DNA of 41,513 bases from Pseudomonas sp. (GTDB lineage: Bacteria; Pseudomonadota; Gammaproteobacteria; Pseudomonadales; Pseudomonadaceae). The DNA is taken from the NCBI RefSeq assembly GCF_026224925.1, contig NZ_JAMFRV010000327.1:1-41513 (forward strand), written 5' to 3'. Position numbers and translations under genes: made by a program. Below the pieces are notes generated by a model. That model saw nothing but the letters and a program-made list of their open reading frames with translations, made no database searches and had not been told where the DNA came from. Positions 20,914-41,513 of the stretch are shown piece by piece; within the stretch, counting starts at the first letter, position 1, and each line of letters opens with the position of its first letter.

Positions 20914-21041
20914 CGAGAATCTGGCTCCGAGGGTAGAGGCTTGCCTGCGGATTAAGGTTCGCGCTGGCTGACGTCATCATAACCCGTCTTTGTGCCACTA
21001 CCTCCCGTCATTCCGGCATAAAAACCACAACGGACCTTCAA

Positions 21042-21057
21042 TCAACCATAACGTTGA
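21042..21057. promoter_or_regulatory. Island operator candidate TCAAC-CATAAC-GTTGA (upstream of ribBA)
   Basis: Perfect 5+5 palindrome with 6-nt spacer, shared with other promoters of the island. Confidence 0.65.
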
Positions 21058-21257
21058 CAGGCACAGTTGTAATCAACATAATTCAATTCATTCCGTTCCA
21101 ATGCTGTTCTACGGAAGCTGGCTTCAGCCACAAAACAAATGGTTCGGTTCAAATATCTGCAACTTAAAAAATAATAAACGCCGTGACGGTCCCTTGACCC
21201 TTTTGCTTCTCCAAGGCTCCGCCGCGAAAAGCCCAGCCACACGTTGAGTGTATTGCC

Positions 21258-22397
21258 ATGCAATTAAACAGCAGCGAAGAAATCATTCAGGACATCCGTA
21301 ACGGCAAGATGGTCGTGCTGATTGATGACGAAGACCGCGAAAACGAAGGCGACCTCGTCATGGCAGCCAAATGTGTGACCGCCGAGCACATTAATTTTAT
21401 GGCCAAGCACGCACGTGGCTTGATATGTATGCCGGTGAGTCAAGCCAAGAGTGATCGCCTGGGTCTAGGGCTTATGGTCAAGCACAATGGTTCTAGCCAC
21501 GGAACCAAGTTCACCAATTCGATCGAAGCCGCAACGGGCGTGAGCACTGGGATTTCGGCCGCAGACCGAGCGCACACCATTCAAGTAGCAGCCCGCTCAC
21601 AGGCGATATCGACTGACCTTGTACAACCAGGTCATATTTTCCCGCTGATCGCTGAAACGGGTGGCGTGCTTGTTCGGGCGGGTCATACCGAAGCCGCCTG
21701 CGACCTCGCCCGCTTGGCAGGGTTTGAGGAAAGTGCAGTCATTTGCGAAGTCATGAATGACGACGGCAGCATGGCGCGTCGTCCTGAACTGGAAGTGTTT
21801 GCCCAAGAACATCAATTAAAAATTGGCACCATCGCTGATCTGATTCACTTCAGAGTTGTCAACGAAAGCACGGTAGATGAGATGGGCACCCGTGTGGTCA
21901 ACACTGACGACGGCGAGTTTTCCCTCCACACCTTTCGTGATCGAATAAACGGAAATGTACATTTCGCACTGGTACGTGGCGAGATATTCAAGGAGCAGCC
22001 GACGCTGACCCGAGTCCAGCAAGGCCTTTCGGCCCGGGATTTATTGGGTATTCAAGCTAAAGGCAGCAGCGGCTGGAACATCAATCGTTGCCTGAAACGA
22101 ATCGCCGAAGAAGGCACCGGCGTACTAGTGCTGCTTGCGGCTTCAGAGTCTGCAGAAGACCTGCTGCAAAGTTTGGGCAATGTCGACGAGTCGGTTCAAC
22201 AACGAAACGTTCCAACCCATTACAACTCGCTGATGATCGGAGTTGGCTCGCAAATTCTGCGTTTACTCGGGCTTGGTAAAATGCGCCTGATGGGCAGCCC
22301 ACGAAAGTACCATGCAATATCGGGTTTCGACCTTGAAGTCTTTGACTACGTAAGTCCATCAGGAACCTCTACCCCCTTTGCTCTCGCAACGTCCTGA
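21258..22397 (+). CDS. ribBA: 3,4-dihydroxy-2-butanone-4-phosphate synthase with degenerate GTP cyclohydrolase II-like domain (RibBA-type)
   Basis: VLIDDEDRENEGDLVMAAKCVTAEHINFMAKHARGLICMP; AGHTEAACDLARLAG; the C-terminal domain lacks the Zn-ligand cysteines of GTPCHII. Confidence 0.93.
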   Translation: MQLNSSEEIIQDIRNGKMVVLIDDEDRENEGDLVMAAKCVTAEHINFMAKHARGLICMPVSQAKSDRLGLGLMVKHNGSSHGTKFTNSIEAATGVSTGISAADRAHTIQVAARSQAISTDLVQPGHIFPLIAETGGVLVRAGHTEAACDLARLAGFEESAVICEVMNDDGSMARRPELEVFAQEHQLKIGTIADLIHFRVVNESTVDEMGTRVVNTDDGEFSLHTFRDRINGNVHFALVRGEIFKEQPTLTRVQQGLSARDLLGIQAKGSSGWNINRCLKRIAEEGTGVLVLLAASESAEDLLQSLGNVDESVQQRNVPTHYNSLMIGVGSQILRLLGLGKMRLMGSPRKYHAISGFDLEVFDYVSPSGTSTPFALATS

Positions 22398-22447: not shown

Positions 22448-23311
22448 ATGAGCATGCAGACGATTCAATACACTGGCTATTCCGACCTGACTTTAGTTGC
22501 CGATATTGGTGGCGATAAGCATAACCCGCCGGTCATTTTGTTACACGGCGGCGGGCAAACTCGTCATTCCTGGCGCCGCTTGGGAAGAACCCTGATTGAC
22601 TCCGGCTATCAGGTTATCAACCTCGACATGAGAGGCCATGGAGACAGCGCTTATTCGCTTGAGGGGGACTATTCACTGGACGCGTTCATTGAAGACCTGA
22701 AAGCGGTTGTCAATACATTGGACCATCCTCCAGTACTCATCGGTGCTTCGTTGGGGGGCGCCGTGTCATTGCTCGCCTGTGGCGAAAGCCTGGCGCTTTG
22801 CGCACGTGCGTTGATATTGGTTGATGTAGTTCCGCGCATGTCTCTGCAAGGCGTCGATAACATAAGGCAGTTCATGGCCAGTACCCTTATAGGCTTTACA
22901 ACGCTGGAAGAAGCTGCCAGCGCTATTGCCAAGTACTCACCAGTGCGCACGAAACCAGCCAGCACCGAAGGGCTATTGAAGGTTCTGAAGCTACGCGCTG
23001 ATGGCCGTTATTACTGGCATTGGGATCCTGCGTTTTTGAATGATGAATCCCGATCTGTATCGGCGCCCTTCACCCATCGGATGGAAACGGCCGCTTCGGC
23101 TATTGGTATTCCGACATTGCTGATCCGCGGAGCTGAAAGTGATGTTGTGACGCAAGACGGAGCGCAATCATTACTCAACCTTATACCTCACGCCCAACTG
23201 CAAGATGTCAGCGGCGCCGGGCATATGGTGGGCGGAGATAAAAATGACCCATTCAACCAAGTCATACTGAATTTTTTGGCAACCGCCCTGCCCGCCCTTG
23301 GTGAGCGTTAA
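22448..23311 (+). CDS. Alpha/beta-fold hydrolase
   Basis: PPVILLHGGGQTRHSWRRLGRTLIDSGYQVINLDMRGHGDSAYS; VLIGASLGGAVSLL; GAGHMVGGD. Confidence 0.93.
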   Translation: MSMQTIQYTGYSDLTLVADIGGDKHNPPVILLHGGGQTRHSWRRLGRTLIDSGYQVINLDMRGHGDSAYSLEGDYSLDAFIEDLKAVVNTLDHPPVLIGASLGGAVSLLACGESLALCARALILVDVVPRMSLQGVDNIRQFMASTLIGFTTLEEAASAIAKYSPVRTKPASTEGLLKVLKLRADGRYYWHWDPAFLNDESRSVSAPFTHRMETAASAIGIPTLLIRGAESDVVTQDGAQSLLNLIPHAQLQDVSGAGHMVGGDKNDPFNQVILNFLATALPALGER

Positions 23312-24256: not shown

Positions 24257-26728
24257 TCAGACCGGCACATTCCTTCGTGGCTTTTCTAATTCAACCCTCA
24301 GATCCTTTTCCTGAGGCACCGTTGTCTCATCCGGCGGCGATACGTCCTTAGCGGGTTTAAGTAAAAAGGCCGCCAAACTCGGTACAACGACCAGCGCGCC
24401 TACCATGTTCCATAAGAACATGAACGCTAAGAGCACTCCCATATCGGCTTGGTACTTGATGGGTGACCAGATCCATGTCGCAACGGCGACGCAAAGTGTC
24501 ACGCCAATCAACGCGACCACCTTCCCAGTGAACATCAATGCCCGACGATAGGCCTCGCGAACCGAGTGCCCTTGACGTACATGGGACAAATAGACCGTCA
24601 GGAGATACAGCGAATAATCGATCCCGATGCCTACACCCAAGGCTATAACAGGTAACGTCGCAACTTTTACCCCGATGCCCATCAAGACCATCAGCGCTTC
24701 GGCCAACACCGAAGTCACCGCCAATGGAATAACCGCCACCAATACCGCTCGCCAACTGCGGAACGTAATCAGGCACAGGATGATAACCACCGCGTAAACC
24801 AGACCGAGCATCTGATAGTTGGCTTTTGCCACAGTTTGATTGGTCGCAGCCTCTATACCCGCGTTTCCGGCGGCCAATAAAAACTGTCGTTGATCGGTAT
24901 TGTGCTTGGCCGCAAAAGCTTCAACCAGAGTCACCACGCTGGCGAGGGTTGAAGCTTTGTGATCGGTCAGGAACGCGATGATAGGCGCGACGTTGCGTGA
25001 ATCGTTAACCATTTCCGGGCTAGCGGCCGACACATTATTAATAGATTCGTTGATGACTGAAGGATCTCGATTGAGTGTGATCCACTTCGGTGACCCTTCA
25101 AATCCTGCCGAGGTTAAGGGTCTGCCGAGACTAGCAATCGAACTGGTGGTCTGAACACCAGGTAACTCCCGGAGCTGCTGCTCCAAGCGATCCATTTCTA
25201 CGACGTCTTCGAAGTTATCCAGTCGCCCTTTGGGGCTGGTGACAATGACTGCGAACTGGTCGCTGGATAACTCATAGTGGCTGGTGATGTAGCCGTTGTC
25301 CCGGTTGTATTCGGAATCGGCCCGCAACTCTGGCGCTCCGGCATCGAGATCGCCTATTTTCAGTTGATGAGCCAGCAATAACCCGCCCGCGGTTAATACA
25401 GCGGTGCCCAGCAAAACAAAACCCGCGACCCGTGGCTCGGTGAACTTCAGCAACATACCCACTACCGGATGCTCACCCTGCTTGCTCCCCACCGCACGCG
25501 CAGCTGCTTTGGGGCTTACCCCGGTGTAGGACAGCAGGATAGGCAATAGCAACAAGTTAGTGACGGTCAATATTGCAACCCCAATACTGGCCTGTAGCGC
25601 CAAGTCGCGGATCGCTGGGATATCGATGATCGACAGTACCGCGAACCCAACCGCATCGGCCATCAACGCTGTGACACCCGCAAGAAACAGTCGACGGAAC
25701 GTATACCTGGCGGCGACATAGCGGTGTGTCCCGCGGCCTACATCCAGCATGATACCGTTCATTTTCTGTGCCCCGTGCGACACACCAATCGCAAATATCA
25801 TGAACGGTACGAGCATTGAAAATGGGTCCAATACGAACCCAAGCATCTGCATTATTCCTAACTGCCAAACCACCGCGATCAACGAACAGGAGATGACCAA
25901 TGCACTGCTGCGAATACAGCGGGTATAGCAGTAGATAATCGCTGAAACCAGCAGTGCGGCGATCAGAAAGTAACCCATCACCTGCATCAGGCCATGAATG
26001 AGATCTCCCGCCAATTTGGCAAAGCCAATGATATAAATCTTGACGCCTTTTGCTTCGTACTCGTGTTTTAGCGACTCCAACTGACTACGCAATTCTTTAT
26101 AGTCAAGGGCTTTGCCAGTTGCGCCATCACGTTCGAGTAAAGGGATGAAAATCATGCTTGAGCGTTGGTCATTGGCCACCAATGAACCAATGATCCCCGA
26201 GCGATAAATATTCTGACGCAAGCCAGTCAAGCTTTCAGCGGAGCCGTTGTAGGCTTCTGGCATTACCGGGCCGCCATCAAAGCCCTGCTCGGTGATTTCT
26301 GTCCAGCGCACCACTGGCATCCACAGCGATTTCATGAACGATCGATCAACGCCGGGTATCAGGAACAGCTTATCGTTGATGTCGCGCAACGTATCGATGT
26401 AATGAGCGTCGTAAATATCTCCGGTGGGATTTTCGACGACTATCCGCAAGGAGTTTCCTAAACCGCGCAATGATGCAGCGTTGTCCTTGTAGTTTTTGAT
26501 GTACGCGTGAGACTGCGGCATCATCTTGTCAAAGCTTGCATTAACGTCCAGGCGCACAGCAGAAAACATAAGCCCGACCGTCAAAACAAGGCTTACTATG
26601 GTGATGATCAAGCGGTTATTGAAGATCAATCGTTCGAGCTTGTTTCCGGAAAGTGAATCAAAATCCTCCACCCTGCGGATCGCCGGCATTGAGTCGCTGT
26701 TTTCGCTGGAGACTGACATCGTCGGCAT
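24257..26728 (-). CDS. RND/MMPL family transporter
   Basis: 823 aa, two hydrophobic blocks; IALGVGIGIDYSLYLLTVYLSHVRQGHSVREAYRRALMFTGKVVALIGVTLCVA. Confidence 0.93.
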   Translation of the reverse strand: MPTMSVSSENSDSMPAIRRVEDFDSLSGNKLERLIFNNRLIITIVSLVLTVGLMFSAVRLDVNASFDKMMPQSHAYIKNYKDNAASLRGLGNSLRIVVENPTGDIYDAHYIDTLRDINDKLFLIPGVDRSFMKSLWMPVVRWTEITEQGFDGGPVMPEAYNGSAESLTGLRQNIYRSGIIGSLVANDQRSSMIFIPLLERDGATGKALDYKELRSQLESLKHEYEAKGVKIYIIGFAKLAGDLIHGLMQVMGYFLIAALLVSAIIYCYTRCIRSSALVISCSLIAVVWQLGIMQMLGFVLDPFSMLVPFMIFAIGVSHGAQKMNGIMLDVGRGTHRYVAARYTFRRLFLAGVTALMADAVGFAVLSIIDIPAIRDLALQASIGVAILTVTNLLLLPILLSYTGVSPKAAARAVGSKQGEHPVVGMLLKFTEPRVAGFVLLGTAVLTAGGLLLAHQLKIGDLDAGAPELRADSEYNRDNGYITSHYELSSDQFAVIVTSPKGRLDNFEDVVEMDRLEQQLRELPGVQTTSSIASLGRPLTSAGFEGSPKWITLNRDPSVINESINNVSAASPEMVNDSRNVAPIIAFLTDHKASTLASVVTLVEAFAAKHNTDQRQFLLAAGNAGIEAATNQTVAKANYQMLGLVYAVVIILCLITFRSWRAVLVAVIPLAVTSVLAEALMVLMGIGVKVATLPVIALGVGIGIDYSLYLLTVYLSHVRQGHSVREAYRRALMFTGKVVALIGVTLCVAVATWIWSPIKYQADMGVLLAFMFLWNMVGALVVVPSLAAFLLKPAKDVSPPDETTVPQEKDLRVELEKPRRNVPV

Positions 26729-26752
26729 ACCTGTTATTAAAGTTATACGTGA

Positions 26753-27853
26753 TCAATGAGGCACGAGGGCGTCATGCGCTATGCCGCCAAGCCCGGTTGT
26801 AATAACCGACTGATCCTGGTTGGAGACGACTGAGGTAAGGCGCATATATTTATCGGGAGTAATGAGTTTGAAAGTCTTTCCGGACGGGTCACCGACCACC
26901 AACTGCCCGTCATTATTCACCAGGGTAAAGTTGCCTTCGGCATCAATAGCGCCGGCAGTCAGCGTGGAATGCGATGGGCTGTTTTGCGGCTGCCAGTTAA
27001 GTCCTGCATCCAGGCTACGGTAGATGGTACCGCGCAGGCCAAAAGCCAACATAATATGGTCGTTGCCCGTCAACCCGAAGAAGCTACCTGCGTAACCGGT
27101 TTGAATGGGCTCAAAACGGTTTTTATCTGGGTCAAGTTTGAAGACGTACCCTTGCTCCGCAGCGATATAGATGTCCCCACCTATGCCTCGCACGCTGTTC
27201 AAGTGCGCGCCATTGGGGTTATCAATTCGGTCAAGCCACGGAACCCAGTTCTTACCGCCATCCACAGTGGCCGCCAAGTTACCGAACGACCCCACGACGT
27301 AACCCTCCTGTTCGTTTTTAAACCACACATCCAGATAAGGCAGCGATGGTCCAGAGCGGTAGTTCAGATCAACCATCTGCAAGGCATCTGCGGCGGACGT
27401 ATCACCGGTGCTGGCCAATTTGTTGTAATACTCCCGAGCAGCAGCCTCAGCCATACGCCCGTCCGATTGCTTAATCCAAGTCTCCCCACCATCTACGCTG
27501 TGCAAAATGATCCCGTCGTGGCCTACGGCCCACCCTTGAGCTGGGGTCGGAAACTGCACTGCAAGTAAATCGCTTTGCACCGGCACCTTCGCTTGCTTCC
27601 AACCTTTACCCTGATCGTCAGAGTAAATGATCAATCCTCGAAGGCCGACTGCGATCAGCCGATTACCCGCATGCGTAATGCCGATAAGCGGGCGTTGGGC
27701 GGGATTCGATTGAGTAATCGCAGGCGTTACCAGTGGGTCCTCGAATGCATAGGCTTGCCCTACAAATAGGACCAGAAAACACAGCAACAATAGAACCGAA
27801 GCGCCTTTACCTGGACCGGTACTCACTTCCTTCCAATCATTCATGGCACCCAC
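26753..27853 (-). CDS. YCF48-like / BNR-repeat (photosystem II stability factor-like) periplasmic protein
   Basis: GITHAGNRLIAVGLRGLIIYSDDQGKGWKQAKVPVQSDLLAVQFPTPAQGWAVGHDGIILHSVDGGETW. Confidence 0.9.
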   Translation of the reverse strand: MGAMNDWKEVSTGPGKGASVLLLLCFLVLFVGQAYAFEDPLVTPAITQSNPAQRPLIGITHAGNRLIAVGLRGLIIYSDDQGKGWKQAKVPVQSDLLAVQFPTPAQGWAVGHDGIILHSVDGGETWIKQSDGRMAEAAAREYYNKLASTGDTSAADALQMVDLNYRSGPSLPYLDVWFKNEQEGYVVGSFGNLAATVDGGKNWVPWLDRIDNPNGAHLNSVRGIGGDIYIAAEQGYVFKLDPDKNRFEPIQTGYAGSFFGLTGNDHIMLAFGLRGTIYRSLDAGLNWQPQNSPSHSTLTAGAIDAEGNFTLVNNDGQLVVGDPSGKTFKLITPDKYMRLTSVVSNQDQSVITTGLGGIAHDALVPH

Positions 27854-27905
27854 TCTCCCGAAAACGAAGCAGCGGCTTGCGACCGCGGCTTCAATTTTTC
27901 TTCAG

Positions 27906-29324: not shown

Positions 29325-29335
29325 CTTATTTATTA

Positions 29336-31039
29336 TTAGAACGAGGTTTTATACGACAATGACACCCAACCTTTATCATCCAGGGCATAAGGACCGTTGC
29401 CACCAACATAGCCTTTCTCACCATTAGGGCCAATGGCGCCGGTTCCTAGGTGATCCCAGTCATAGTCCTGGTACTGCAACGTAACCTGGTGAACTTGTTT
29501 ATAATTCGCGCGGATCCCCACGGAGTACACCAGTGATTTTTCTGCATAGAAAGAGCCCGCTGCATACGCCGGGTTACCACTGACACCGTAAGTGCCTGAT
29601 ATCGGCAAACTCAGGTCAATCGAAGGAAAAACTTGTAACCACTGAGGTTCAAACAAGAAGGCCACTGCGGCAGCATCTTTGGTCGCGCAGCCTTGAGCTA
29701 TTCCACCGCCATTACACGCGGAATAACCTTTGCCCATAAACAATTCTTTGTTTTTGGTCACGCTGTCGAGGTGGGTATACGTCACCTCCGCAAGCAGGAT
29801 GCCCGCGTCCCAGAAAGGCGTGGTCCCCAGCTGGGTGAAACTGTTGGCAAGCAAGTTTGTAATATTACCGCGTGCGCCTTCACGGTAAGGCTGGGCAGGG
29901 CCGGTACCAAAGCTCGGTAAGGTAAATGAACTGGCAAGAGCCGTATTGGTACGGTAGTTGGCCTCCATGCCGAAACTGGTGCTGCCAACAGTCGTTTCGT
30001 ACGACAAACCATACAGTTTTACGTTGTCGCCATAGGAAAGATGTACGTCGCCGCCGACGCCAAGCTGCCCTTCCGCCAACGCCCAAGGTTGGGTTTCATC
30101 CAGGCGCCGATAGTAGAACCCGATCGTGCCATTCGCCCATTCAGGGGACCAGGCAGCCTTGACCCCGAAGTTGTTGTTAATGTTCTTCAGGTCATGACTT
30201 TCACCTGCAGAAAATCCAGGACCAAATTGAAACTCTGACGTGTTAGGCCCCTGATAAAGCAAGTCCGAGGGTGCCAGGTAGGTACCGCCTTCTGGATAAC
30301 GGTTTTCTGCGTTTTCCAGAAAGTACTGTCCACTTACAGTCAAGGTAGGTGTCAGCTCTGCAACCAGGTTGGCCTGACCCCGCGGCAAAAAAAGCTCTTT
30401 AACTTCGGAACCCGGTTGGGTGAAGCCCTTGATATAATCGACGGCATGTTGCCCATAAGAAATGCTACTAAAACCAAAGAACAGTGCGTTACCCCACTGC
30501 TGGGTAAATCGACCGAATTTGGCATATACCGGTACATCACTGATTTCAAAGTTCTTGAACACAAACGCATCCAGTAACTCTGCGCCCCTCAACTGGTACT
30601 TCTTTGTGTAAGAGGAATAATGACCGTTGGAGTAGCTGACTCCGTAACCAGGCGCGGGATTGGTTTCAACTTTGTCGTCATAAGCGAAATCTTTCCACCC
30701 TGAGCCCGACAGACGAAAGCCCATGCGATCCTGATACACGCCCTGAAACTCGAACAGCATTTGCAGGCGGTTAGTGACCATGTCACCTTGGTTAAACTTG
30801 TAATCACTTTGCGCATTCGGAATTGAGTTACCGATGTTGTTATCGCGCCCTTCCGCACGCCAGCCCATCGTGTACTGCAGTGTCGTATCAAAATTGACCC
30901 GCCAATCGCTATCACCCGGGTCAAATGTATAAGCGTGAGCCTGTGTGACAAAACACCCCGATGTAGCGATCAACGCAATGGCGGCAGTGAGTTTTTTCGG
31001 TCTGGCGGTGATGTTTTCTTTAATTTTTGTTTTCATCAT
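29336..31039 (-). CDS. DUF1302 family outer-membrane protein (beta-barrel porin-like)
   Basis: Signal peptide, YTFDPGDSDWRVNFDTTLQYTMGWRAEGRDNNIGN, C-terminal aromatic end SYKTSF; ATG at 31039/31036 with gagagga RBS. Confidence 0.9.
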   Translation of the reverse strand: MMKTKIKENITARPKKLTAAIALIATSGCFVTQAHAYTFDPGDSDWRVNFDTTLQYTMGWRAEGRDNNIGNSIPNAQSDYKFNQGDMVTNRLQMLFEFQGVYQDRMGFRLSGSGWKDFAYDDKVETNPAPGYGVSYSNGHYSSYTKKYQLRGAELLDAFVFKNFEISDVPVYAKFGRFTQQWGNALFFGFSSISYGQHAVDYIKGFTQPGSEVKELFLPRGQANLVAELTPTLTVSGQYFLENAENRYPEGGTYLAPSDLLYQGPNTSEFQFGPGFSAGESHDLKNINNNFGVKAAWSPEWANGTIGFYYRRLDETQPWALAEGQLGVGGDVHLSYGDNVKLYGLSYETTVGSTSFGMEANYRTNTALASSFTLPSFGTGPAQPYREGARGNITNLLANSFTQLGTTPFWDAGILLAEVTYTHLDSVTKNKELFMGKGYSACNGGGIAQGCATKDAAAVAFLFEPQWLQVFPSIDLSLPISGTYGVSGNPAYAAGSFYAEKSLVYSVGIRANYKQVHQVTLQYQDYDWDHLGTGAIGPNGEKGYVGGNGPYALDDKGWVSLSYKTSF

Positions 31040-31126: not shown

Positions 31127-31142
31127 GTAAACACTTACGTTG
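31127..31142. promoter_or_regulatory. Island operator candidate TAAAC-ACTTAC-GTTGA (9/10) upstream of the DUF1302 operon
   Basis: One mismatch to TCAAC-N6-GTTGA; about 90 nt upstream of the DUF1302 start. Confidence 0.5.
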
Positions 31143-31240
31143 ACAACCTGGACGAATGTATACGAGATAACGTCCCTGCTATCTCTCATCATTTTGATTG
31201 CGATGTACGGTGTTATGAAGGGACGGGCCCGGTCAGCAGG

Positions 31241-32350
31241 TCAGGAAGGTAGTTTTATTCTCGGCGCTACTTCTTTCGCAATCAGTTCCAGCGAATTGAA
31301 CCAAGGCGACGGGTCATCGAAGTAATCGTGAGATTCGACCTGCATCGTGCCCCAGCCACCTGCCGCCTCAAACAAGGTGTTGATTTTGTCAGCAACGGTA
31401 TCCGGCGACCCGACTACAAATACGTTATCGACTAACCATTCGAGGTTTACGTCTGCCGCACTGGCGCCTTTATCTTTGATGAAGCCGTCCATCATCCCGA
31501 AACGCCACCAAATGGGTATCAGGTAACGTTCGAAGCAATAGCCAATGGGGCCTTCCATGACCAGGCGCTTCGCCTCTTTATCGGTGTCGGCCACGAATAC
31601 AGTTTGAGATACCGCATGGTTGGCGCGGCTAGGGGTATAACCCGCTTTATAAGCAGCATCGGAATACATGTCCCAATGGCTCTTGAGCGCATCAAGGCCC
31701 GAGTAAATGGACACTGGTTTAAAACCACGCTCTCCAGCCAAACGCATTGATGGCGAATTGAAACTGAAGCCGGTTACTGCGATATCGGGTGCCTTGCCAC
31801 CCCAAGGGCTAAAGTCTGCCAACATATGCTGCTGGTCTTCGGCGTTGTCAGCATGTGTCTCTTCTGGATAGCCTGCCTTCCAATATTTACCTTCCTGGAA
31901 GAACGGTTCACGCTTCCAGATTTTCTCCATGATATCCAAAGATTCCCGAACCATATCGTTAAGAAATTTGGTGTCTTCACCGCCCTTGATCCCGTGGATA
32001 TAAGACGACTGTGGATAGGCGCCTGCACCGATGCCAAGGAAATAACGGCCTTCGAGAATTTGCGACAGCCAGCCGATCATGATGGCCAGTTTGGCTGGAT
32101 GTTGATGAGGAAGAATGTGCGCCATGGGGGCGAACTTGATTCTGCTTGTCTGGAGTGCTGCCGCAGCGATGATCAGCTCGGGATTGGGAATGTTTTCCCA
32201 GCGTTGCGAGGCGTGTTCGGAAATCATCATTGAGCTAAAGCCGGCTTTGTCAGCTGCGATAGCGCTCTGTACACCCCAATCAAACGTCTGCCGAGCAGTG
32301 CGCTCCGGCTTCATGTAAGGATGGAAAATAAGACCGGTTTCCATAGGCAT
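31241..32350 (-). CDS. LLM-class (luciferase-like) flavin-dependent oxidoreductase
   Basis: METGLIFHPYMKPERTARQTFDWGVQSAIAADKAGFSSMMISEHASQRW; ILEGRYFLGIGAGAYPQ; ATG 32350 with ggagagaa RBS. Confidence 0.93.
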   Translation of the reverse strand: MPMETGLIFHPYMKPERTARQTFDWGVQSAIAADKAGFSSMMISEHASQRWENIPNPELIIAAAALQTSRIKFAPMAHILPHQHPAKLAIMIGWLSQILEGRYFLGIGAGAYPQSSYIHGIKGGEDTKFLNDMVRESLDIMEKIWKREPFFQEGKYWKAGYPEETHADNAEDQQHMLADFSPWGGKAPDIAVTGFSFNSPSMRLAGERGFKPVSIYSGLDALKSHWDMYSDAAYKAGYTPSRANHAVSQTVFVADTDKEAKRLVMEGPIGYCFERYLIPIWWRFGMMDGFIKDKGASAADVNLEWLVDNVFVVGSPDTVADKINTLFEAAGGWGTMQVESHDYFDDPSPWFNSLELIAKEVAPRIKLPS

Positions 32351-32471
32351 GGCGTTTCTCTCCTCTCTCTTTTTTATTTCTATTCTTAAGGTAAAACAGT
32401 CATACGGGCCGTACTCGGATGTCACGCAAAACCACGACTCGCAGTGAATATCCTATACAAATATTGCCAAG

Positions 32472-32487
32472 TCAACAGTAACGTTGA
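32472..32487. promoter_or_regulatory. Island operator candidate TCAAC-AGTAAC-GTTGA upstream of the LLM gene
   Basis: Perfect match to the shared palindrome. Confidence 0.65.
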
Positions 32488-32627
32488 ACAAGCAAAAATT
32501 AATTTTTACGGGCTCTGGTCTCATCAAAAAAAGGCCAGCACACCTCATCTTCCGCGGAGGACCAGCCACCACGAAACGATACAAGTTTTTAATCAACGTT
32601 ATCGTTTAACCAACCGAAAAACAGCGT

Positions 32628-34274
32628 TTATGCTTCTAACACATCGCACAATCGTTGCCTGAGTGCCTGCTTATTGACCTTGGTCGCGGACATGGGCCAG
32701 CTTCCAGCTTCGATGAAATAGACAGCTCGAGGGACTTTGTAGTTGGCTATCTGTCCTTTACAGAAAGCAATCAACTCATCGGCCGTTGCAGTGCAGCCCG
32801 GTTGCAGCTCGACAAACGCCACAGGCACCTCATCCAGTCGTGAGTCGGCTCGCCCTACTACCTCTGCAAGCTTTACCGCAGGATGGCTACAGAGAAAAGC
32901 CTCTACTTCAACCGCCGAGACATTCTCGCCGCCGACCTTCAACATGTCTTTGAGGCGACCGTTGAATACCAGTCCGCCGTCATCGTTGAAACGATAAAGA
33001 TCTCCGGTGTGTAACCAGCCCTGCGCGTCGATGGCTTGGGCGGTTTTTTCGTTATCGCGGTAATAACCAGACATGACACAGTAGCCCCGAACCAAAACTT
33101 CTCCGACCTTGCCGGGCAGAACATCATCGCCTGTGGAAGGGTCAACGATGCGCACATCAATACCCTCTGCAGGCCTGCCATGGCTGATGGCGCGCTGGGC
33201 GAGTGAATCGTCTGGCGAACTCAATGCGAAGATGCCAGACGTCTCGGTCATACCACATGCCTGAATAGCCTCAGCTTGCGGCAATAGTCGTTGCACGCGT
33301 TCTACCAGGGCTGGTGCGGTAATCAAAATAACAGTGCGTAACGCCAACAAGCGTTGTGAGTCGAACGTCGGATGATCCAGCAATGCCTGAACCACCGCCG
33401 GAAACCATGGCCAGATAGTTGTCACCTGCTCATCCATCATGAGTTTCAGCGCGCGACCAGGTTCAAAAAAGGCATCAGTGAGGTAAGTGCCCGCCGCGCC
33501 AATGGTGCCGATAAACGGTGCCAGAGACCCGATATGAAACAGCGGCCCTCCTCCCCACACAACATTCCCGCCCTTGGCCGCAAAACGGCTGCGTGCACGC
33601 TCTACAGAGCCTCGGGTAATAGCTTCATGGGTCAACATGCAGCCTTTGGGATGTGCGGTGGTGCCTGAGGTGTATACGGTCAACGCGATGTCGCACGTGC
33701 GAACACGCCTACGCAAGGCGTCCACACGATCAGGGGATACCTGCGCAATCAATGTGTCGAACTGATCCCGCCCGATAAACCCGGGCCGCTGCTTGCCGCG
33801 TAACAGCACTGCGACGCGTAGATTCGGCGCTTCAGGTAATGACAAATGCGTGGCGTCGGGGGCCACCGACAACGAGGGCAGCGCCGCACAAAACAGCTCG
33901 GTGAAATCAACGTACTCTTGGTCGTCTGCCGTGGTCAGCAATGCCGCGAGATGCGCATTACGGATGATAAAACCAATTTCGGCTGCCTTATGGCGGGCAT
34001 TCAACGGCACGATGACACACCCAAGCAGCGCCGCAGCAAAAAATCCTTCAGTGAATTCGATGCTGTTGGTCGACATGAGCCCGACGTTATCGCCAGGCAT
34101 AACACCCAACGCCAACAGCCCTTGCGCTGTTTTCACTGCGCCCTGCATTAATTGCGAATAGGTGCATCGATGCTCTGGTAGAACCAACGCAAATCGGTCT
34201 GGGTGAAGATGGGCTGCACGCACCAATAAATCCCCGATGGGAGACACCTCACACCACCCGCTGAAAAGCTCCAT
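32628..34274 (-). CDS. AMP-dependent acyl-CoA synthetase/ligase
   Basis: TVYTSGTTAHPKGCMLTHEA; GWLHTGDLYRFNDDGGLVFNGRLKDMLKVGGENVSAVEVEAFL; ATKVNKQALRQRL. Confidence 0.95.
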   Translation of the reverse strand: MELFSGWCEVSPIGDLLVRAAHLHPDRFALVLPEHRCTYSQLMQGAVKTAQGLLALGVMPGDNVGLMSTNSIEFTEGFFAAALLGCVIVPLNARHKAAEIGFIIRNAHLAALLTTADDQEYVDFTELFCAALPSLSVAPDATHLSLPEAPNLRVAVLLRGKQRPGFIGRDQFDTLIAQVSPDRVDALRRRVRTCDIALTVYTSGTTAHPKGCMLTHEAITRGSVERARSRFAAKGGNVVWGGGPLFHIGSLAPFIGTIGAAGTYLTDAFFEPGRALKLMMDEQVTTIWPWFPAVVQALLDHPTFDSQRLLALRTVILITAPALVERVQRLLPQAEAIQACGMTETSGIFALSSPDDSLAQRAISHGRPAEGIDVRIVDPSTGDDVLPGKVGEVLVRGYCVMSGYYRDNEKTAQAIDAQGWLHTGDLYRFNDDGGLVFNGRLKDMLKVGGENVSAVEVEAFLCSHPAVKLAEVVGRADSRLDEVPVAFVELQPGCTATADELIAFCKGQIANYKVPRAVYFIEAGSWPMSATKVNKQALRQRLCDVLEA

Positions 34275-34396
34275 TGCTCTCTCCCCATTTCGATGTCGTC
34301 GTGCGAGTCGAGCCCGCGAAACGTCCTATTTTTTGTTTTAAGAAGGCTGAAAAACACGCACCACTGCTTTTGCGTCAAAGCACCATGTACAACACT

Positions 34397-34528
34397 TTAA
34401 CTAATAGACATGAAATCCGCGCCCGCTTTTGCGCCCCAGATATCCGGCAAGCCTTGACCCGCTGGCACCCGAGCTATGCCGCAGCCCATTACTCCGGCAC
34501 CGATAATGCCAACCTTTTTGATTGCCAT
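34397..34528 (-). pseudogene. Truncated 3-hydroxyacyl-CoA dehydrogenase remnant
   Basis: MAIKKVGIIGAGVMGCGIARVPAGQGLPDIWGAKAGADFMSIS*: NAD-binding GxGxxG N-terminus joined to a possible C-terminal GxGfyDw-like segment; 43 codons. Confidence 0.6.
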
Positions 34529-34531
34529 GAA

Positions 34532-35302
34532 TCACAGCCCACGCCAGACAGGTTTTCGCTTTTCAACAAATGCGTTACGTCCTTCCAGCCGGTCGGCACT
34601 GAACGCATAATTTTCGATCGGCTCATAGCGTGTGCTCAACGCAGTTTCCAGCGAGGATTCAAGTCCTTGCCATGCGGCAGACTTGGCAGCCTGGTTGGCC
34701 AAAGGTGAGGCCAACACCACCTTTTCGGCCCAGCGTGCAGCTGCGGCTTGCAGGTCCGCGAACGGAACCACCTCATTGATCAGCCCGTGTTGCAGCGCAT
34801 CGCTTGCAGGCATGCGCTCGCCGGTAAGAATCATCGCCATGGCAATACGTGGCGGCAATTGACGCATGGTCCTGTGCAGTACACCGCACTCGCCGATGAT
34901 CCCGGCCTTGGTTTCCGGCACTGCAAACAGTGCTGAATCCGCAGCCACAATGATGTCTGCGCACAGTGCCAATTCGAAACCACCGCCCAGAACATAGCCC
35001 TGTACGGCAGCGATCATTGGCTTATTCAACTTCACCAAAGGCCCACCGACCCCCGTCAATCCGCCACCGAGGGCCATGCGCGAGGGCCGCTCGGCACCAC
35101 CACTGACGTCTGCGCCGACACAGAACGCCCTTTCACCTTCTGCAGAAAGCACAACGACCCATATCTCAGGATCACGGTTAATCTCGTGCCAGGCATCATG
35201 TAACGCTTGATCCATCTCGCTGTTGATTGCGTTCAAAGACTTGGGGCGGTTGAGCCGTACGTGGGCGACATGGCCCTCACAAAAAAACTCGATATCTGAC
35301 AT
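34532..35302 (-). CDS. Enoyl-CoA hydratase/isomerase (crotonase) family protein
   Basis: VRLNRPKSLNAINSEMDQAL; FCVGADVSGG; AAVQGYVLGGGFELALCADIIVAADSALFAVPETKAGIIG. Confidence 0.94.
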   Translation of the reverse strand: MSDIEFFCEGHVAHVRLNRPKSLNAINSEMDQALHDAWHEINRDPEIWVVVLSAEGERAFCVGADVSGGAERPSRMALGGGLTGVGGPLVKLNKPMIAAVQGYVLGGGFELALCADIIVAADSALFAVPETKAGIIGECGVLHRTMRQLPPRIAMAMILTGERMPASDALQHGLINEVVPFADLQAAAARWAEKVVLASPLANQAAKSAAWQGLESSLETALSTRYEPIENYAFSADRLEGRNAFVEKRKPVWRGL

Positions 35303-35327
35303 GAGTGCTTCTCTATATAGGTGAGGA

Positions 35328-35807
35328 TCAAGCGCGTCCGATGGGATTCGCTTCTTTAACGTGAAAGTCTTTCGACCCAGCGTTGCACAGCACACGCTTT
35401 TTGAAGCGCCATGCCCCGTCAACCTTCACGACTTCGTCCCGGTACTGCCCCCACACATGGCTGTCGGGCCGCTCGCGGCTGTAGCGGTGCCACGCATACA
35501 CGATCGAACGTACCTGGGCAGTTGCATCGTCGATGAACTCGACTTTGATATTCGACACATGGTGGCTGGTGCCCACGAAATACGTACCGATGCCTTCCAG
35601 CGTTTTGGCGTACGCCTCGCGCCCTACCGCACCGAAGTTAGGCGCATAGCTAATTTCACAGTCTTCTATAAACAGCTCGCTGAGCTCCTGGGGATGGTTC
35701 ATGTCCAGGTGGAAGGCGTAGTCGTAAATCAACGTCTTGATTTCGTCAGCAGCACTTAAGCGAAGCACTTGCGTGTAAAGCTCTTGCAAATCGACTGGCT
35801 CATTCAT
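35328..35807 (-). CDS. SnoaL-like / nuclear transport factor 2 family protein
   Basis: RLSAADEIKTLIYDYAFHLDMNHPQELSELFIEDCEISYAP; VWGQYRDEVVKVDGAWRFKKRVL. Confidence 0.88.
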   Translation of the reverse strand: MNEPVDLQELYTQVLRLSAADEIKTLIYDYAFHLDMNHPQELSELFIEDCEISYAPNFGAVGREAYAKTLEGIGTYFVGTSHHVSNIKVEFIDDATAQVRSIVYAWHRYSRERPDSHVWGQYRDEVVKVDGAWRFKKRVLCNAGSKDFHVKEANPIGRA

Positions 35808-35825
35808 CTTTCAGGCTCTATTTTG

Positions 35826-35841
35826 TCAACACGAAAGTTGA
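35826..35841. promoter_or_regulatory. Island operator candidate TCAAC-ACGAAA-GTTGA
   Basis: Perfect match, about 19 nt upstream of the SnoaL-like start on the minus strand. Confidence 0.65.
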
Positions 35842-35865
35842 TAATAGAATCAGTCAACACCAGCG

Positions 35866-35881
35866 TCAACAGACAGATTGA
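35866..35881. promoter_or_regulatory. Island operator candidate TCAAC-AGACAG-ATTGA (9/10)
   Basis: One mismatch to the shared palindrome. Confidence 0.4.
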
Positions 35882-35887
35882 TCGCTT

Positions 35888-35903
35888 TCAACACATCAGT
35901 TGA
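35888..35903. promoter_or_regulatory. Island operator candidate TCAAC-ACATCA-GTTGA
   Basis: Perfect match to the shared palindrome. Confidence 0.65.
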
Positions 35904-35919
35904 TTTTACTTTCCACAAA

Positions 35920-35935
35920 TCAACATCACCGTTGA
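35920..35935. promoter_or_regulatory. Island operator candidate TCAAC-ATCACC-GTTGA
   Basis: Perfect match, about 60 nt upstream of the second LLM gene. Confidence 0.65.
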
Positions 35936-35994
35936 CATAATCAAAATCAGATCGCATGCTTGCTTTCACAAGCCGCTTTCCCAGGAGAACAATA

Positions 35995-37149
35995 ATGAAA
36001 TTCAACTTGATGCAGACCGGCGTTATTGGCCGCCGCTATGAGATAGAAGCTGGCATGGCCGGGCAGCGGCCCGAGCTTTACCAACGGTTTCTTTCCGAGG
36101 TTAAGGATTACGTTCGCCTTGCGGACGACCTTGGCTACGCAGGCTATTGCCAGCCGGAACATCACCTGCAGATCGAAGGCTTTGAGATTAACAACCACCC
36201 TGGCATGTTTAGCCTGTTCGTCGGCATGCACTCCAAACGCCTCAAAGCAGGAATCATGGGCTACACCCTGCCTACGCATAACCCGGTACGTATTGCCGAA
36301 GAAATTGCCACCCTCGACCATATGTTGCAGGGCCGCTTGTTCGTAGGATTCACCCGGGGTTACCACGCGCGTTGGGTAGATTCATACGCCGCTATTCGCG
36401 GCGTTTCTGCAACCACCGTCGATATGGTCAAGTCCAAGGACGCCATGGACGAGCTCAACCGCGAGATTTTCGAAGAGTCCCTACAAGTCATTAAAAAGGC
36501 TTGGACCAATGACGTGTTCAGCCATAAAGGCAAACATTGGGAGTTCCCGCCAAACGGCGGCTCCGCTGGCCACCCTGCCTACGCTGAGTTTGGCAAAGGC
36601 ATGGACAAGGACGGCATTGTCCGCCAGATCGGCATCGCACCGCTGTGCTATCAAAAACCGCATCCACGCATCTACGGCGGTTTCGCCGGCAGCATGAAAA
36701 CCGTCGACTTCTGGGCACGCGAAGGCGGCAAGCCAATTGTCCTGTCGGGTGACCTGGACTTCTGTGAAGCCCTCTGGAAACGCTATGCGGAGAGTGCCAA
36801 GCAAGCAGGCAATGAAGTCGCACGCGAAGAGGTCGCGGCATGGGGTGGCTTCTTGATGTTGACCAATGACAAAACCAAAGCCCGCGAGCTAATGGCTGAG
36901 CACCAATGGTTTTGGGACAAGTGGTTCATTCCGTTTGGTCAGCGCATGCCCAACGTCCTGATTGGTTCAGCAGACGAGATCGCCGACCGCATCGGTGAGG
37001 CTCATGACCGACTGGGTTTCAATGAGCTGTTCCTGATGTTCGGCCAGGGTCACCTCAACCCAGATCAAAACAACGAAGAACTGGAGAAATTCGCCAGTCT
37101 TGTAGCGCCGCGGTTTGCGACCAAAGGCGCAGACGGCATATTTGCCTGA
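35995..37149 (+). CDS. LLM-class (luciferase-like) flavin-dependent oxidoreductase, second copy
   Basis: MKFNLMQTGVIGRRYEIEAGMAGQRPELYQRFLSEVKDYVRLADDLGYAGYCQPEHH; HMLQGRLFVGFTRGYHARWVDSY; RBS aggag. Confidence 0.94.
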   Translation: MKFNLMQTGVIGRRYEIEAGMAGQRPELYQRFLSEVKDYVRLADDLGYAGYCQPEHHLQIEGFEINNHPGMFSLFVGMHSKRLKAGIMGYTLPTHNPVRIAEEIATLDHMLQGRLFVGFTRGYHARWVDSYAAIRGVSATTVDMVKSKDAMDELNREIFEESLQVIKKAWTNDVFSHKGKHWEFPPNGGSAGHPAYAEFGKGMDKDGIVRQIGIAPLCYQKPHPRIYGGFAGSMKTVDFWAREGGKPIVLSGDLDFCEALWKRYAESAKQAGNEVAREEVAAWGGFLMLTNDKTKARELMAEHQWFWDKWFIPFGQRMPNVLIGSADEIADRIGEAHDRLGFNELFLMFGQGHLNPDQNNEELEKFASLVAPRFATKGADGIFA

Positions 37150-37163
37150 GTGCTCGCTCGCTA

Positions 37164-37187
37164 CCCAGCGCCGCACACGGCGCTGGG
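37164..37187. other. Intercistronic hairpin between LLM and flavin reductase genes
   Basis: cccagcgcc-gcacac-ggcgctggg, perfect 9-bp stem. Confidence 0.7.
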
Positions 37188-37218
37188 CCTACACACTTTG
37201 CCGATTGCAGGATCAGCC

Positions 37219-37770
37219 ATGACCATAAAACAACAGCACGAAGCCATTCAGCCATTGGACCCGAAAAGGTTTCGCCAGGTGCTTGGGCAATATCCTACGG
37301 GCGTCTGCGTGATCACCGCGATACAAGAGGACAACGCACCTGCAGCCATGGTGGTCGGATCCTTTACTTCAGTCTCCCTCGATCCACCCTTGGTTGCGTT
37401 CTTGCCCGACCGAGCGTCTTCAAGCTGGCCAAAAATTCAGGCCGCAGGAAAGTTCTGCGTGAACATTTTAGGGGCTGACCAGGAGGACGTATGCCGACGT
37501 CTCGCGTCCAAAGCTACTGATAAATTCATCGGCACGGTGTATCGACTCTCCCCGCTGGGTTCTCCGATTATTGAGCAAAGCGTCGCGTGGATAGATTGCG
37601 ACATGCAAGCCATTCACGAGGCCGGTGACCATTACATTGTGATTGGCCTGGTCCATGACCTGGAAATCGAACAAGGCGGCCTGCCGCTAGTATTCTTCCA
37701 GGGCAGCTATGGCCAGTTTTCGCCATTGGGGCTAGCCACAGCAAAAGAACGCAGCGCAACCAGCGTCTAA
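37219..37770 (+). CDS. Flavin reductase family protein
   Basis: FRQVLGQYPTGVCVITAIQEDNAPAAMVVGSFTSVSLDPPLVAFLPDRASSSWPKIQAAGKFCVNIL. Confidence 0.94.
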   Translation: MTIKQQHEAIQPLDPKRFRQVLGQYPTGVCVITAIQEDNAPAAMVVGSFTSVSLDPPLVAFLPDRASSSWPKIQAAGKFCVNILGADQEDVCRRLASKATDKFIGTVYRLSPLGSPIIEQSVAWIDCDMQAIHEAGDHYIVIGLVHDLEIEQGGLPLVFFQGSYGQFSPLGLATAKERSATSV

Positions 37771-37797: not shown

Positions 37798-38580
37798 ATG
37801 ATCGATGAACAAGAAGCGTGTGCATGCCTGAGTGTCAACGGGATGATCGCAACGATTACCCTGAACAAGCCCACAGCTTATAACGCCATTGATACAGACA
37901 TGGCCTTGCGCTTGAAATTGCTCGCATTGGAAGTAGAGGCACGAAAAGACATTCGCGTACTGGTATTAGCCGGTGCAGGTAAATCGTTCTGCGCTGGCGG
38001 TGATCTGGATTTCTTCGTCAGGCATATCGATGATCTCGCCCCACCCATTACTCAACTACTGACCGACCTGAATATCTTTCTGCTGGTTTTGCAGCGGATG
38101 CCAGCGCTAGTGCTGACCAGCGTTCAGGGTGTGGCGGCAGGCGCCGGCTTTTCACTGGCCTTCATGGGGGATTTTTGTATAGCGGCCGATAATGCAAGAC
38201 TGCGTCCGGCTTACATCCAAATAGGTTTGTCACCCGATGCCGGCGGCACGGCGGCCCTGGTTCGCGCTGTAGGTCCACGGCGTGCCATGCAGTTGTTTTT
38301 GGCTGAACAGGAAGTCAGTGCGCAACAAGCAATGCAGTGGGGCATGGTCGCTCGCGTTGTACCGGCTGTAGAACTTAAACAGCAGACAGAAGCCTTCGCC
38401 CTTCGTTTGGCACTGTGGGAACCCAAGGCAGCAGCGGCTACCAAACGACTGATCATGCATTCAGCCGGCACAAAACTGCATATACAACTGGAGGAGGAAT
38501 TAAAAGCAGTGGTCAGTTGCATGGACTCGGAGTCGTTTAAACTCAAACTTCGGCAGTTGCGGCAAAATCGACACAATTGA
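37798..38580 (+). CDS. Enoyl-CoA hydratase/isomerase (crotonase) family protein
   Basis: ATITLNKPTAYNAIDTDMALRL; KSFCAGGDLDFF; GVAAGAGFSLAFMGDFCIAADNARLRPAYIQIGLSPDAGGTAAL. Confidence 0.93.
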   Translation: MIDEQEACACLSVNGMIATITLNKPTAYNAIDTDMALRLKLLALEVEARKDIRVLVLAGAGKSFCAGGDLDFFVRHIDDLAPPITQLLTDLNIFLLVLQRMPALVLTSVQGVAAGAGFSLAFMGDFCIAADNARLRPAYIQIGLSPDAGGTAALVRAVGPRRAMQLFLAEQEVSAQQAMQWGMVARVVPAVELKQQTEAFALRLALWEPKAAAATKRLIMHSAGTKLHIQLEEELKAVVSCMDSESFKLKLRQLRQNRHN

Positions 38581-40312: not shown

Positions 40313-41062
40313 TCATTGAGCCAACATACCGGCGTCGACCAGGTATTCACTGCCCGTTATATAAGACGCCTCGTCTGAGGCAAGAAACAGCACCAGGTTG
40401 CTGACTTCTTCTGGCTTTGCAATGCGCCCCAACGGAATTTGCGCCAACGCATCGCCGCCCTGATCATCCGTGGCTTCAACCATCATCGGCGTTTGAATAA
40501 AGCCGGGGTGTACCGAGTTAACCCTTATGTTGCGCGGGCCATACTCGATTGCCGCCGCTTTGGTCATACCGCGGACCGCAAACTTACTGGCTACGTACGC
40601 CAGACTCGGAAAACCGTAGTTGGCGGCCATCCCGGCAATAGATGAGATGTTAACGATAGAGCCGATGCCCGCCTCCAACATCGACGGAATAACCGCCTGC
40701 ATGCCATAGAACACTGCGTGCTGATTAACTGCACAGACGCTGGCGTAATCTTCGGCGCTCAGTTCGACGGTCTGTGCAACAGGGCCAAGAACTCCGGCAT
40801 TGTTCACCAGAATAGTGATGGGACCAAAACGGGCCACGCCCTGGGCCACGACACACGCCCAGCTATGAACATTGGAAACATCCTGTTTAATGAACAGTGC
40901 GTTGTCAGCACCCAGTTCATTCATTAAGGCGACTCCGCGTTCTTCGTTAAGATCAGTGATGACGACTTTCGCACCTTCACGAACGAATCGTTGAGCGTGA
41001 GATGTCCCCATTCCACGCGCAGCACCCGTTATCAAAGCGACTTTATTGAGTAGCCTGCTCAT
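40313..41062 (-). CDS. SDR family oxidoreductase
   Basis: KVALITGAARGMGTSHAQRFVREGAKVVITD; ILVNNAGVLGP; NISSIAGMAANYGFPSLAYVASK; GSEYLVDAGMLAQ. Confidence 0.96.
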   Translation of the reverse strand: MSRLLNKVALITGAARGMGTSHAQRFVREGAKVVITDLNEERGVALMNELGADNALFIKQDVSNVHSWACVVAQGVARFGPITILVNNAGVLGPVAQTVELSAEDYASVCAVNQHAVFYGMQAVIPSMLEAGIGSIVNISSIAGMAANYGFPSLAYVASKFAVRGMTKAAAIEYGPRNIRVNSVHPGFIQTPMMVEATDDQGGDALAQIPLGRIAKPEEVSNLVLFLASDEASYITGSEYLVDAGMLAQ

Positions 41063-41119: not shown

Positions 41120-41513
41120 TCAAGGGGCAAGAAAAGTGTCATAGGCATGTACCGTATCCATGTACTCGCGAATTCGTTTGATCTTGCCGTCGGAGAGTTC
41201 AATGGCCATGTGAAGTTGGTTTTTATAAATGCGACCATTGACTAACTCAGCATAACATTGCACTTCCACCGCGACCCGATCACTTTCGGCGATCATGCTG
41301 ATGGGGGTCACAGGCAGGGCACCTTGTTTATAAACGGCGGTAATACCGGACAGCAGCTCACACATTTGTCGACGATCGTAAGTACCCGACAGTCCTTCCA
41401 GACTGCCCGCGACCCACCAACTGAAATCCTCATGAAAAAAAGCAGAAATGGCCTCAAGGTTTCCACTGGAGAAGGCCTTCAGAAAATCACTCACCAGGTG
41501 TTTACTGCTTTCA
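41120..41513 (-). CDS. SnoaL-like / nuclear transport factor 2 family protein, probably 5'-truncated at the window edge
   Basis: FLKAFSSGNLEAISAFFHEDFSWWVAGSLEGLSGTYDRRQMCELLSGI; frame stays open upstream of the GTG at 41494 (ESSKHLVSDF). Confidence 0.82.
   Translation of the reverse strand, partial: ESSKHLVSDFLKAFSSGNLEAISAFFHEDFSWWVAGSLEGLSGTYDRRQMCELLSGITAVYKQGALPVTPISMIAESDRVAVEVQCYAELVNGRIYKNQLHMAIELSDGKIKRIREYMDTVHAYDTFLAP

Follow-up and report, generated by a model that had tools for sequence, protein, structure and literature searches.

The stretch of DNA analysed here, which we call the window, covers positions 1 to 41,513 of contig NZ_JAMFRV010000327.1 in the Pseudomonas sp. assembly GCF_026224925.1, 41,513 nucleotides in all. 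It holds two luciferase-like monooxygenase (LLM) genes, LLM1 and LLM2, a flavin reductase gene behind LLM2, a TetR-family regulator gene and repeated copies of an 18-bp palindrome, RTCAAC-N6-GTTGAY. We think it likely that the window holds the genes for the ring-cleavage and coenzyme A (CoA) steps of a camphor-type catabolic regulon, which a TetR-type repressor would control. The features that carry this argument are listed below; identities are to Pseudomonas typographi CA3A or to the related clusters described later, and FMNH2 is reduced flavin mononucleotide (FMN).

31241..32350, minus strand: LLM1, predicted orthologue of 3,6-diketocamphane 1,6-monooxygenase (CamE36), oxygenating component; 369 amino acids, 681 bits to PDB 4UWM
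35995..37149, plus strand: LLM2, luciferase-like monooxygenase of an uncharacterised family kept in camphor-type clusters; 384 amino acids, PF00296 at 99.2 bits
37219..37770, plus strand: flavin reductase (HsaB/FerA-like), candidate FMNH2 supplier, 70 bp behind LLM2; PF01613 at 140 bits
38633..39280, minus strand: TetR-family regulator, presumed binder of RTCAAC-N6-GTTGAY; PF00440 and PF17932, 83% in P. typographi
21258..22397, plus strand: ribBA-type flavin biosynthesis gene; PRK14019 at 524.7 bits, over the 513 cut-off; exact operator at 21041; kept in related clusters
21041..21058: operator ATCAACCATAACGTTGAC, exact, before ribBA
31127..31144: operator GTAAACACTTACGTTGAC, one mismatch, before the DUF1302 gene
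32471..32488: operator GTCAACAGTAACGTTGAA, one mismatch, about 120 bp before LLM1
35825..35842: operator GTCAACACGAAAGTTGAT, exact, between the SnoaL gene and LLM2
35865..35882 and 35887..35904: operators with one mismatch each, between the SnoaL gene and LLM2
35919..35936: operator ATCAACATCACCGTTGAC, exact, between the SnoaL gene and LLM2, 76 bp before LLM2
39440: operator copy with one mismatch, from the pattern search

A preliminary description of this DNA had called the two LLM proteins divergent, and they are, with 28% identity between them. Both exceed the Pfam Bac_luciferase cut-off of 27.9 bits (LLM1 119.6, LLM2 99.2). Genome-wide statements here refer to the window's own assembly, 6.88 Mb in 795 contigs and 94% complete, where a profile search found 28 further PF00296 matches. 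This richness in luciferase-family proteins, many of NtaA or SsuD type, points to sulfur and xenobiotic scavenging. We placed LLM1 and LLM2 in an IQ-TREE phylogeny that included 17 other LLM proteins of the genome.

By its sequence LLM1 is an orthologue of CamE36, a type II Baeyer-Villiger monooxygenase of the camphor pathway, because it is 79.8% identical to CamE36 (PDB 4UWM), keeps the active-site residues and nests in the CamE36 clade. All five positions checked are retained: His10 and Ser44 at the isoalloxazine of FMN, His46 and Glu52 in the cavity, and Ala77 at the cis bulge (residue roles from PMC4631483). In the tree, 4UWM falls within the clade that holds LLM1, with a fork support of 93/99. 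The same description had proposed type II Baeyer-Villiger cleavage of an alicyclic or terpenoid-like compound followed by CoA-dependent breakdown, and this is now indicated for LLM1, by its kinship with CamE36, and for the regulon around it. Two other Pseudomonas genomes (L002/G024 and L105/G411) have an LLM 36% identical to LLM1 that forms another, unassigned branch near the diketocamphane enzymes; LLM2 is absent from both.

Judged from the tree, LLM2 represents a distinct and uncharacterised family whose sister group is the diketocamphane monooxygenases. LLM2 lies outside the CamE25/CamE36 clade in a clade of its own (support 93/88, long branches), away from the SsuD, NtaA-type (nitrilotriacetate) and RutA proteins. 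The AlphaFold2 model is a luciferase TIM barrel with a pTM of 0.78. A structural search with this model, whose mean pLDDT is only 73.5, ranked RslO1, 2I7G, 4UWM/5AEC and luciferases highest, all scoring about equally, so that no Baeyer-Villiger kinship stood out. The flavin reductase behind LLM2, already pointed out in the preliminary description, is borne out by its PF01613 match; translation probably begins at the ATG at 37219 (183 amino acids, as in P. typographi) and not at 37150. We suppose that LLM2 would be a Baeyer-Villiger enzyme served by this adjoining reductase.

A scan of 84,980 genomes found relatives of LLM2 at 53 loci, with identities of 81-95% in Pseudomonas, Halopseudomonas, Collimonas and Pseudoduganella, 66-78% in sphingomonads, and a partial match in Pandoraea terrae. 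The camphor-type clusters in which the gene recurs belong to Pseudomonas, Burkholderiales and sphingomonads. Around it stand a CoA ligase, the crotonases ECH1 and ECH3, a SnoaL protein, the flavin reductase (in nearly all fully covered clusters), ribBA, a short-chain dehydrogenase/reductase (SDR) and a TetR regulator. These clusters also hold a CamE36 orthologue and/or a paralogue we call LLM3, and many add a CamD-like zinc dehydrogenase and a CYP101 P450. In most of them LLM2 directly precedes LLM3, which resembles the 2,5-diketocamphane monooxygenase: it is 46-48% identical to 4UWM, measures 363 amino acids in gamma- and betaproteobacterial genomes, and keeps His46 and Glu52; its residue 10 is Thr and its residue 44 is Gly. 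The 2,5-isoenzyme CamE25 has likewise lost H10 and S44 and kept H46 and E52 (PMC4631483), and its length is also 363 amino acids (PMC8706424). The cluster of P. typographi CA3A is collinear with the window (LLM1 90%, LLM2 94%). There the P450 operon and the window-type cluster share one contig, 9 kb from LLM1, and this contig carries genes for a P450, SDR, ferredoxin, ferredoxin reductase, crotonase, hydroxyacyl-CoA dehydrogenase and thiolase. Our search found no plasmids near-identical to the window.

Some genomes carry LLM2 twice. In Halopseudomonas, Pseudomonas MYb185 and four BN/xwS strains the DNA identity between the copies is 99.6-100%; the pairs are L034 (10001-11155)/L032 (10001-11155), L033/L035, L020/L023, L027/L028 and L040/L039. 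Where this was checked (L034/L032 and L033/L035) the copies lie 17 kb apart, and identity stops near the gene ends and 57-65 bp upstream. One copy precedes the flavin reductase and CoA ligase, the other precedes LLM3. Since the copies are nearly identical within a genome and LLM2 differs by well over 10% between the species that bear duplicates, gene conversion is suggested.

The operators tie the window to a second contig. Allowing up to two mismatches, we count 19 copies of the palindrome in the window, compared with 5.2 +/- 2.1 in shuffled sequence, and the earlier observation of copies upstream of each LLM gene stands: a one-mismatch copy at 32471 for LLM1, exact copies at 35825 and 35919 for LLM2. 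There are five exact operators in the genome, three in the window and two lying 60-175 bp before the ferredoxin reductase gene of an operon on contig C564, which is unlinked to the window. About 1.3 would be expected from base composition. The number alone is not in excess, with 5 for the operator against 8 for a reversed control pattern; the location is telling. All five fall within 57 kb of two contigs, and C564 was picked for its P450, not for its operators. The operator is present at 49 of 51 LLM2 loci, so the pairing of LLM2 with it must be old. The TetR-family protein of the window presumably binds these sites.

The C564 operon consists of a ferredoxin reductase, a putidaredoxin-like ferredoxin (putidaredoxin is its best match), an SDR and a CYP101A-like P450. 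The P450 scores 536 bits against P450cam, with 56% identity over the aligned part. On a list of 15 camphor-contact positions, which we take from established knowledge of P450cam, it keeps 13, compared with 12 in a CYP101D2-like enzyme and 3-4 in the genome's other three P450s. Y96, F87, F98, T101, T185, V295 and D297 are all kept; V247L and G248A are changed. These comparisons point to a co-regulated P450cam-type three-component hydroxylase of the cam pathway, and the common operators appear to tie hydroxylation on C564 and ring cleavage in the window into one regulon. Behind the P450 are genes for a 3-hydroxyisobutyryl-CoA hydrolase, an acyl-CoA dehydrogenase and an enoyl-CoA hydratase, which fits isobutyryl-CoA as the reported end product of camphor breakdown (PMC6027186). 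The operon (1951-8770 of C564 with the genes behind it) has apparently moved away from ribBA, which adjoins its relative in P. typographi.

The preliminary description had also listed a CoA ligase, crotonases, an SDR and a hydrolase. Pfam and NCBIfam profiles recover all of them, the crotonases three times:

22448..23311, plus strand: alpha/beta hydrolase, candidate lactone hydrolase; PF00561 at 88 bits, 65% in P. typographi
32628..34274, minus strand: AMP-forming acyl-CoA ligase, candidate activator of the ring-opened acid; PF00501 at 226 bits, 54-71% relatives beside LLM2 in related clusters
34397..34528, minus strand: remnant of a 3-hydroxyacyl-CoA dehydrogenase gene, MAIKKVGIIGAGVMGCGIARV..., 43 codons then a stop in translation, just upstream of the CoA ligase
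34532..35302, minus strand: crotonase ECH1; PF00378 at 206 bits, 60-77% in related clusters
35328..35807, minus strand: SnoaL-like protein; PF13577 at 88 bits, kept in related clusters
37798..38580, plus strand: crotonase ECH2, downstream of LLM2 and the flavin reductase; PF00378 at 145 bits
39415..40272, minus strand: crotonase ECH3; PF00378 at 104 bits, kept in related clusters
40313..41062, minus strand: SDR alcohol dehydrogenase; PF13561 at 212 bits, 68-77% in many related clusters
41120..41494, minus strand: SnoaL_2 protein; PF12680, 48-58% in related clusters

The P450 operon region of P. typographi holds an intact hydroxyacyl-CoA dehydrogenase gene, as against the remnant at 34397-34528.

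We propose the following route. The P450cam-like three-component system of C564 would hydroxylate a bornane-type ketone, and an SDR would oxidise the product to a diketone. LLM1, acting as a type II Baeyer-Villiger oxygenase that depends on FMNH2, would then cleave the first ring. The lactone formed in this step undergoes spontaneous opening in P. putida and gives a cyclopentenone acetic acid; here the acyl-CoA ligase would activate that acid. LLM2, fed by the adjoining flavin reductase, would most likely carry out the second Baeyer-Villiger oxidation, after which the hydrolase, crotonases, dehydrogenase and thiolase would degrade the open chain to acetyl-CoA and isobutyryl-CoA. The flavin would be supplied by ribBA. 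LLM1 orthology, the common operators, the P450cam-like active site, the conserved clusters and the failure to find an OTEMO orthologue are drawn from sequence; we infer the substrate, each reaction, the pairing of repressor and operator and, above all, the role of LLM2. The substrate would on this argument be a camphor-type bicyclic monoterpenoid, and the presence of only a CamE36-type enzyme favours (-)-camphor or a related bornane.

The role of LLM2 turns on an enzyme that this genome does not seem to have, OTEMO (CamG; PDB 3UOV), which catalyses the second Baeyer-Villiger step in P. putida. We found no OTEMO orthologue in our genome, where the best type I Baeyer-Villiger monooxygenase match has 37% identity, nor in any of the 12 gamma- and betaproteobacterial LLM2 genomes, ours included (44% at most and usually under 40%). 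Two of these 12, from Halopseudomonas xiamenensis and Pseudomonas sp. MYb185, lack OTEMO despite an otherwise recognisable camphor pathway that includes a P450cam (79%), a CamE36 (92% to the CAM enzyme), a CamD-like dehydrogenase, a 363-amino-acid LLM3 and two copies of LLM2. The reverse case is a plasmid of Novosphingobium ES2-1, which has CamE36 (80%) and OTEMO (73%) without LLM2. Because of these OTEMO-less genomes with a camphor pathway and the reverse case, we regard LLM2 as the best candidate for the second of the two ring openings, and we lean slightly toward the view that LLM2 and its reductase perform the OTEMO step.

Several points weigh against the picture as a whole. LLM2 is only 29% identical to 4UWM. 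OTEMO orthologues do occur in 9 of 24 sphingomonad LLM2 genomes and on plasmid pSH1 of Sphingobium xenophagum, where the cluster has a CYP101D2-like P450 (755 bits) and an OTEMO orthologue (1018 bits). The CAM plasmid, too, has a luciferase-like gene, orf23, in addition to camG (PMC6352141), so LLM2 is not a strict alternative to OTEMO. No close relative of LLM3 or the 2,5-diketocamphane monooxygenase was found in our genome or in P. typographi, and none of the CamD-type zinc dehydrogenase in our genome (best 33%). P. typographi shows the same absences, of CamD, CamE25 and OTEMO relatives. The SDR next to the C564 P450 may replace CamD, and the diketone substrate could be a camphor analogue. 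Absences in our genome are themselves not final because the assembly is 94% complete and in 795 contigs. As side observations, pSH1 (NZ_CP076558.1) has two OTEMO-type genes, at 31193-32812 and 41642-43276, 80% identical to each other, and its cluster (L009) adds riboflavin kinase and dodecin genes to the ribBA-type gene.

The idea that LLM2 simply replaces OTEMO is weakened by the roughly ten sphingomonad genomes or records that have both. Such overlap has a precedent in Caenibius, where a type I Baeyer-Villiger monooxygenase and an LLM both oxidise progesterone (PMC12239570). In a review, orf23 of the CAM plasmid is called a luciferase-like monooxygenase whose camphor role is "currently unrecognised", and it is numbered beside orf22, which is camE25-2 (PMC6352141). 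LLM2 adjoins the CamE25-like LLM3 in the same way, so orf23, by its gene neighbour and family description, is probably an LLM2-family protein. We are evenly divided on whether LLM2 founds a new type II Baeyer-Villiger family, acting on a CoA ester, that replaces or backs up OTEMO and includes orf23.

The most direct rival keeps the pathway and gives LLM2 a different job: a further oxygenation of diketocamphane type, a later oxygenation of the chain, or a partnership with LLM1 or LLM3, with the second opening left to an unrecognised oxygenase elsewhere. The coexistence of LLM2 with OTEMO in sphingomonads, and probably on the CAM plasmid, would suit this idea, as would its place directly before LLM3 in most clusters and its distance from the characterised diketocamphane monooxygenases in the tree. 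However, we noticed no further conserved oxygenase in the clusters that lack OTEMO, and our reconstruction of how the trimethylpimelyl chain is broken down to acetyl-CoA and isobutyryl-CoA requires no extra oxygenase, so we doubt it. We also regard it as rather unlikely that the natural substrate is a different bicyclic monoterpenoid, such as borneol or isoborneol, a bornyl ester or fenchone, with LLM1 a CamE36-like variant. LLM1 is 80% and not above 90% identical to CamE36, and the P450 is 56% identical to P450cam with two contact changes. The cluster carries two SDRs of its own, and relatives of CamD and the 2,5-enzyme are missing here and in P. typographi, which comes from the spruce bark beetle Ips typographus, a habitat that offers several terpenoids (PMC7564387). 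Against this, the seven P450 contacts named above and every LLM1 active-site position checked are kept, and borneol would join the same pathway via camphor.

Two readings would leave the camphor pathway altogether. A steroid pathway with a progesterone-type LLM, like the Baeyer-Villiger enzyme of Caenibius (PMC12239570), was considered because of that enzyme, the HsaB-like flavin reductase and the DUF1302 and DUF1329 genes. Genes of these two families are associated with steroid clusters. The best NCBIfam match of the flavin reductase is HsaB, but at 187 bits it falls short of the 230-bit cut-off. We rejected this reading, which we consider highly improbable, since LLM1 nests in the CamE36 clade and the co-regulated P450 is CYP101-like and not of steroid type. 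We give still less credence to the proposal that both proteins are sulfonate- or F420-type LLM enzymes without Baeyer-Villiger function, a placement that the preliminary description had named as the sign against its own view. LLM1 and LLM2 do match curated models of both types weakly, with scores far below the cut-offs. The tree contradicts the proposal, as both fall outside the SsuD/NtaA/RutA groups, and the flavin reductase in the cluster also speaks against it. We keep to a camphor-type regulon in which LLM1 would open the first ring and LLM2 is the leading candidate for the second.

Further genes of the window flank this system. LLM1 lies on the minus strand, co-oriented with the four genes downstream of it:

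24257..26728, minus strand: MMPL/RND transporter; PF03176, 80% in P. typographi
26753..27844, minus strand: YCF48/BNR periplasmic protein; PF14870
27906..29324, minus strand: DUF1329 protein; PF07044 at 361 bits
29336..31036, minus strand: DUF1302 outer-membrane protein; PF06980 at 344 bits

The set (24257-31036) also occurs in gamma- and betaproteobacterial clusters, and sphingomonad clusters carry TonB receptors instead. It is possible that these genes form a terpenoid uptake or export set. A gene resembling 2-phosphosulfolactate phosphatase (PF04029; 23298-24014, plus strand) lies between the hydrolase and the MMPL gene; we saw no counterpart of it in the corresponding region of P. typographi.

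As a model pathway, camphor breakdown gave us P450cam and the first biological Baeyer-Villiger oxidation. Type II Baeyer-Villiger enzymes, of which there are few, are of use in synthesis. The window can be set beside the known systems part by part. LLM1 resembles CamE36 of the P. putida CAM plasmid (EC 1.14.14.155, PDB 4UWM/5AEC) in clade, in FMN and cavity residues and at 79.8% identity. CamE25 (2,5-diketocamphane 1,2-monooxygenase) is resembled by LLM3 of the related clusters in its length of 363 amino acids, in keeping H46/E52 and in losing H10/S44. P450cam (CYP101A1), putidaredoxin and putidaredoxin reductase all have counterparts in the C564 operon, but where the P450cam system has CamD, C564 has an SDR between the ferredoxin and the P450. 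According to reviews the published 40.5 kb CAM region is without a flavin reductase gene, and the source of FMNH2 for the CAM enzymes is disputed (PMC8706424). The cluster described here does have one such gene, and a reductase and a flavin-biosynthesis gene beside the oxygenases make the question of FMNH2 supply to the diketocamphane enzymes testable. The Pdc LLM of Caenibius tardaugens, a type II Baeyer-Villiger LLM that sits in a catabolic cluster and is redundant with a type I enzyme (PMC12239570), acts on a steroid, progesterone. Two 50 kb stretches of plasmid pNL2 yielded no LLM of the Caenibius type, and LLM2 is not on pNL2. The closest analogue on the CAM plasmid itself may be orf23 beside camE25-2 (orf22), whose neighbour and family description match the LLM2-LLM3 pairs. 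LLM2 is kept while OTEMO comes and goes, which makes the role of orf23 testable. By its position in the pathway LLM2 is proposed for the same step as OTEMO, but the two differ in kind: OTEMO is a type I enzyme of another fold that uses FAD and NADPH, and LLM2 is a luciferase-fold protein. A camphor-type regulon is known in itself; to our knowledge, LLM2 with its reductase in place of, or beside, OTEMO would be a new variant. A new conserved type II Baeyer-Villiger family, if real, would have practical value for synthesis. If LLM2 does perform the second opening and its family includes orf23, the textbook camphor pathway had an overlooked oxygenase.

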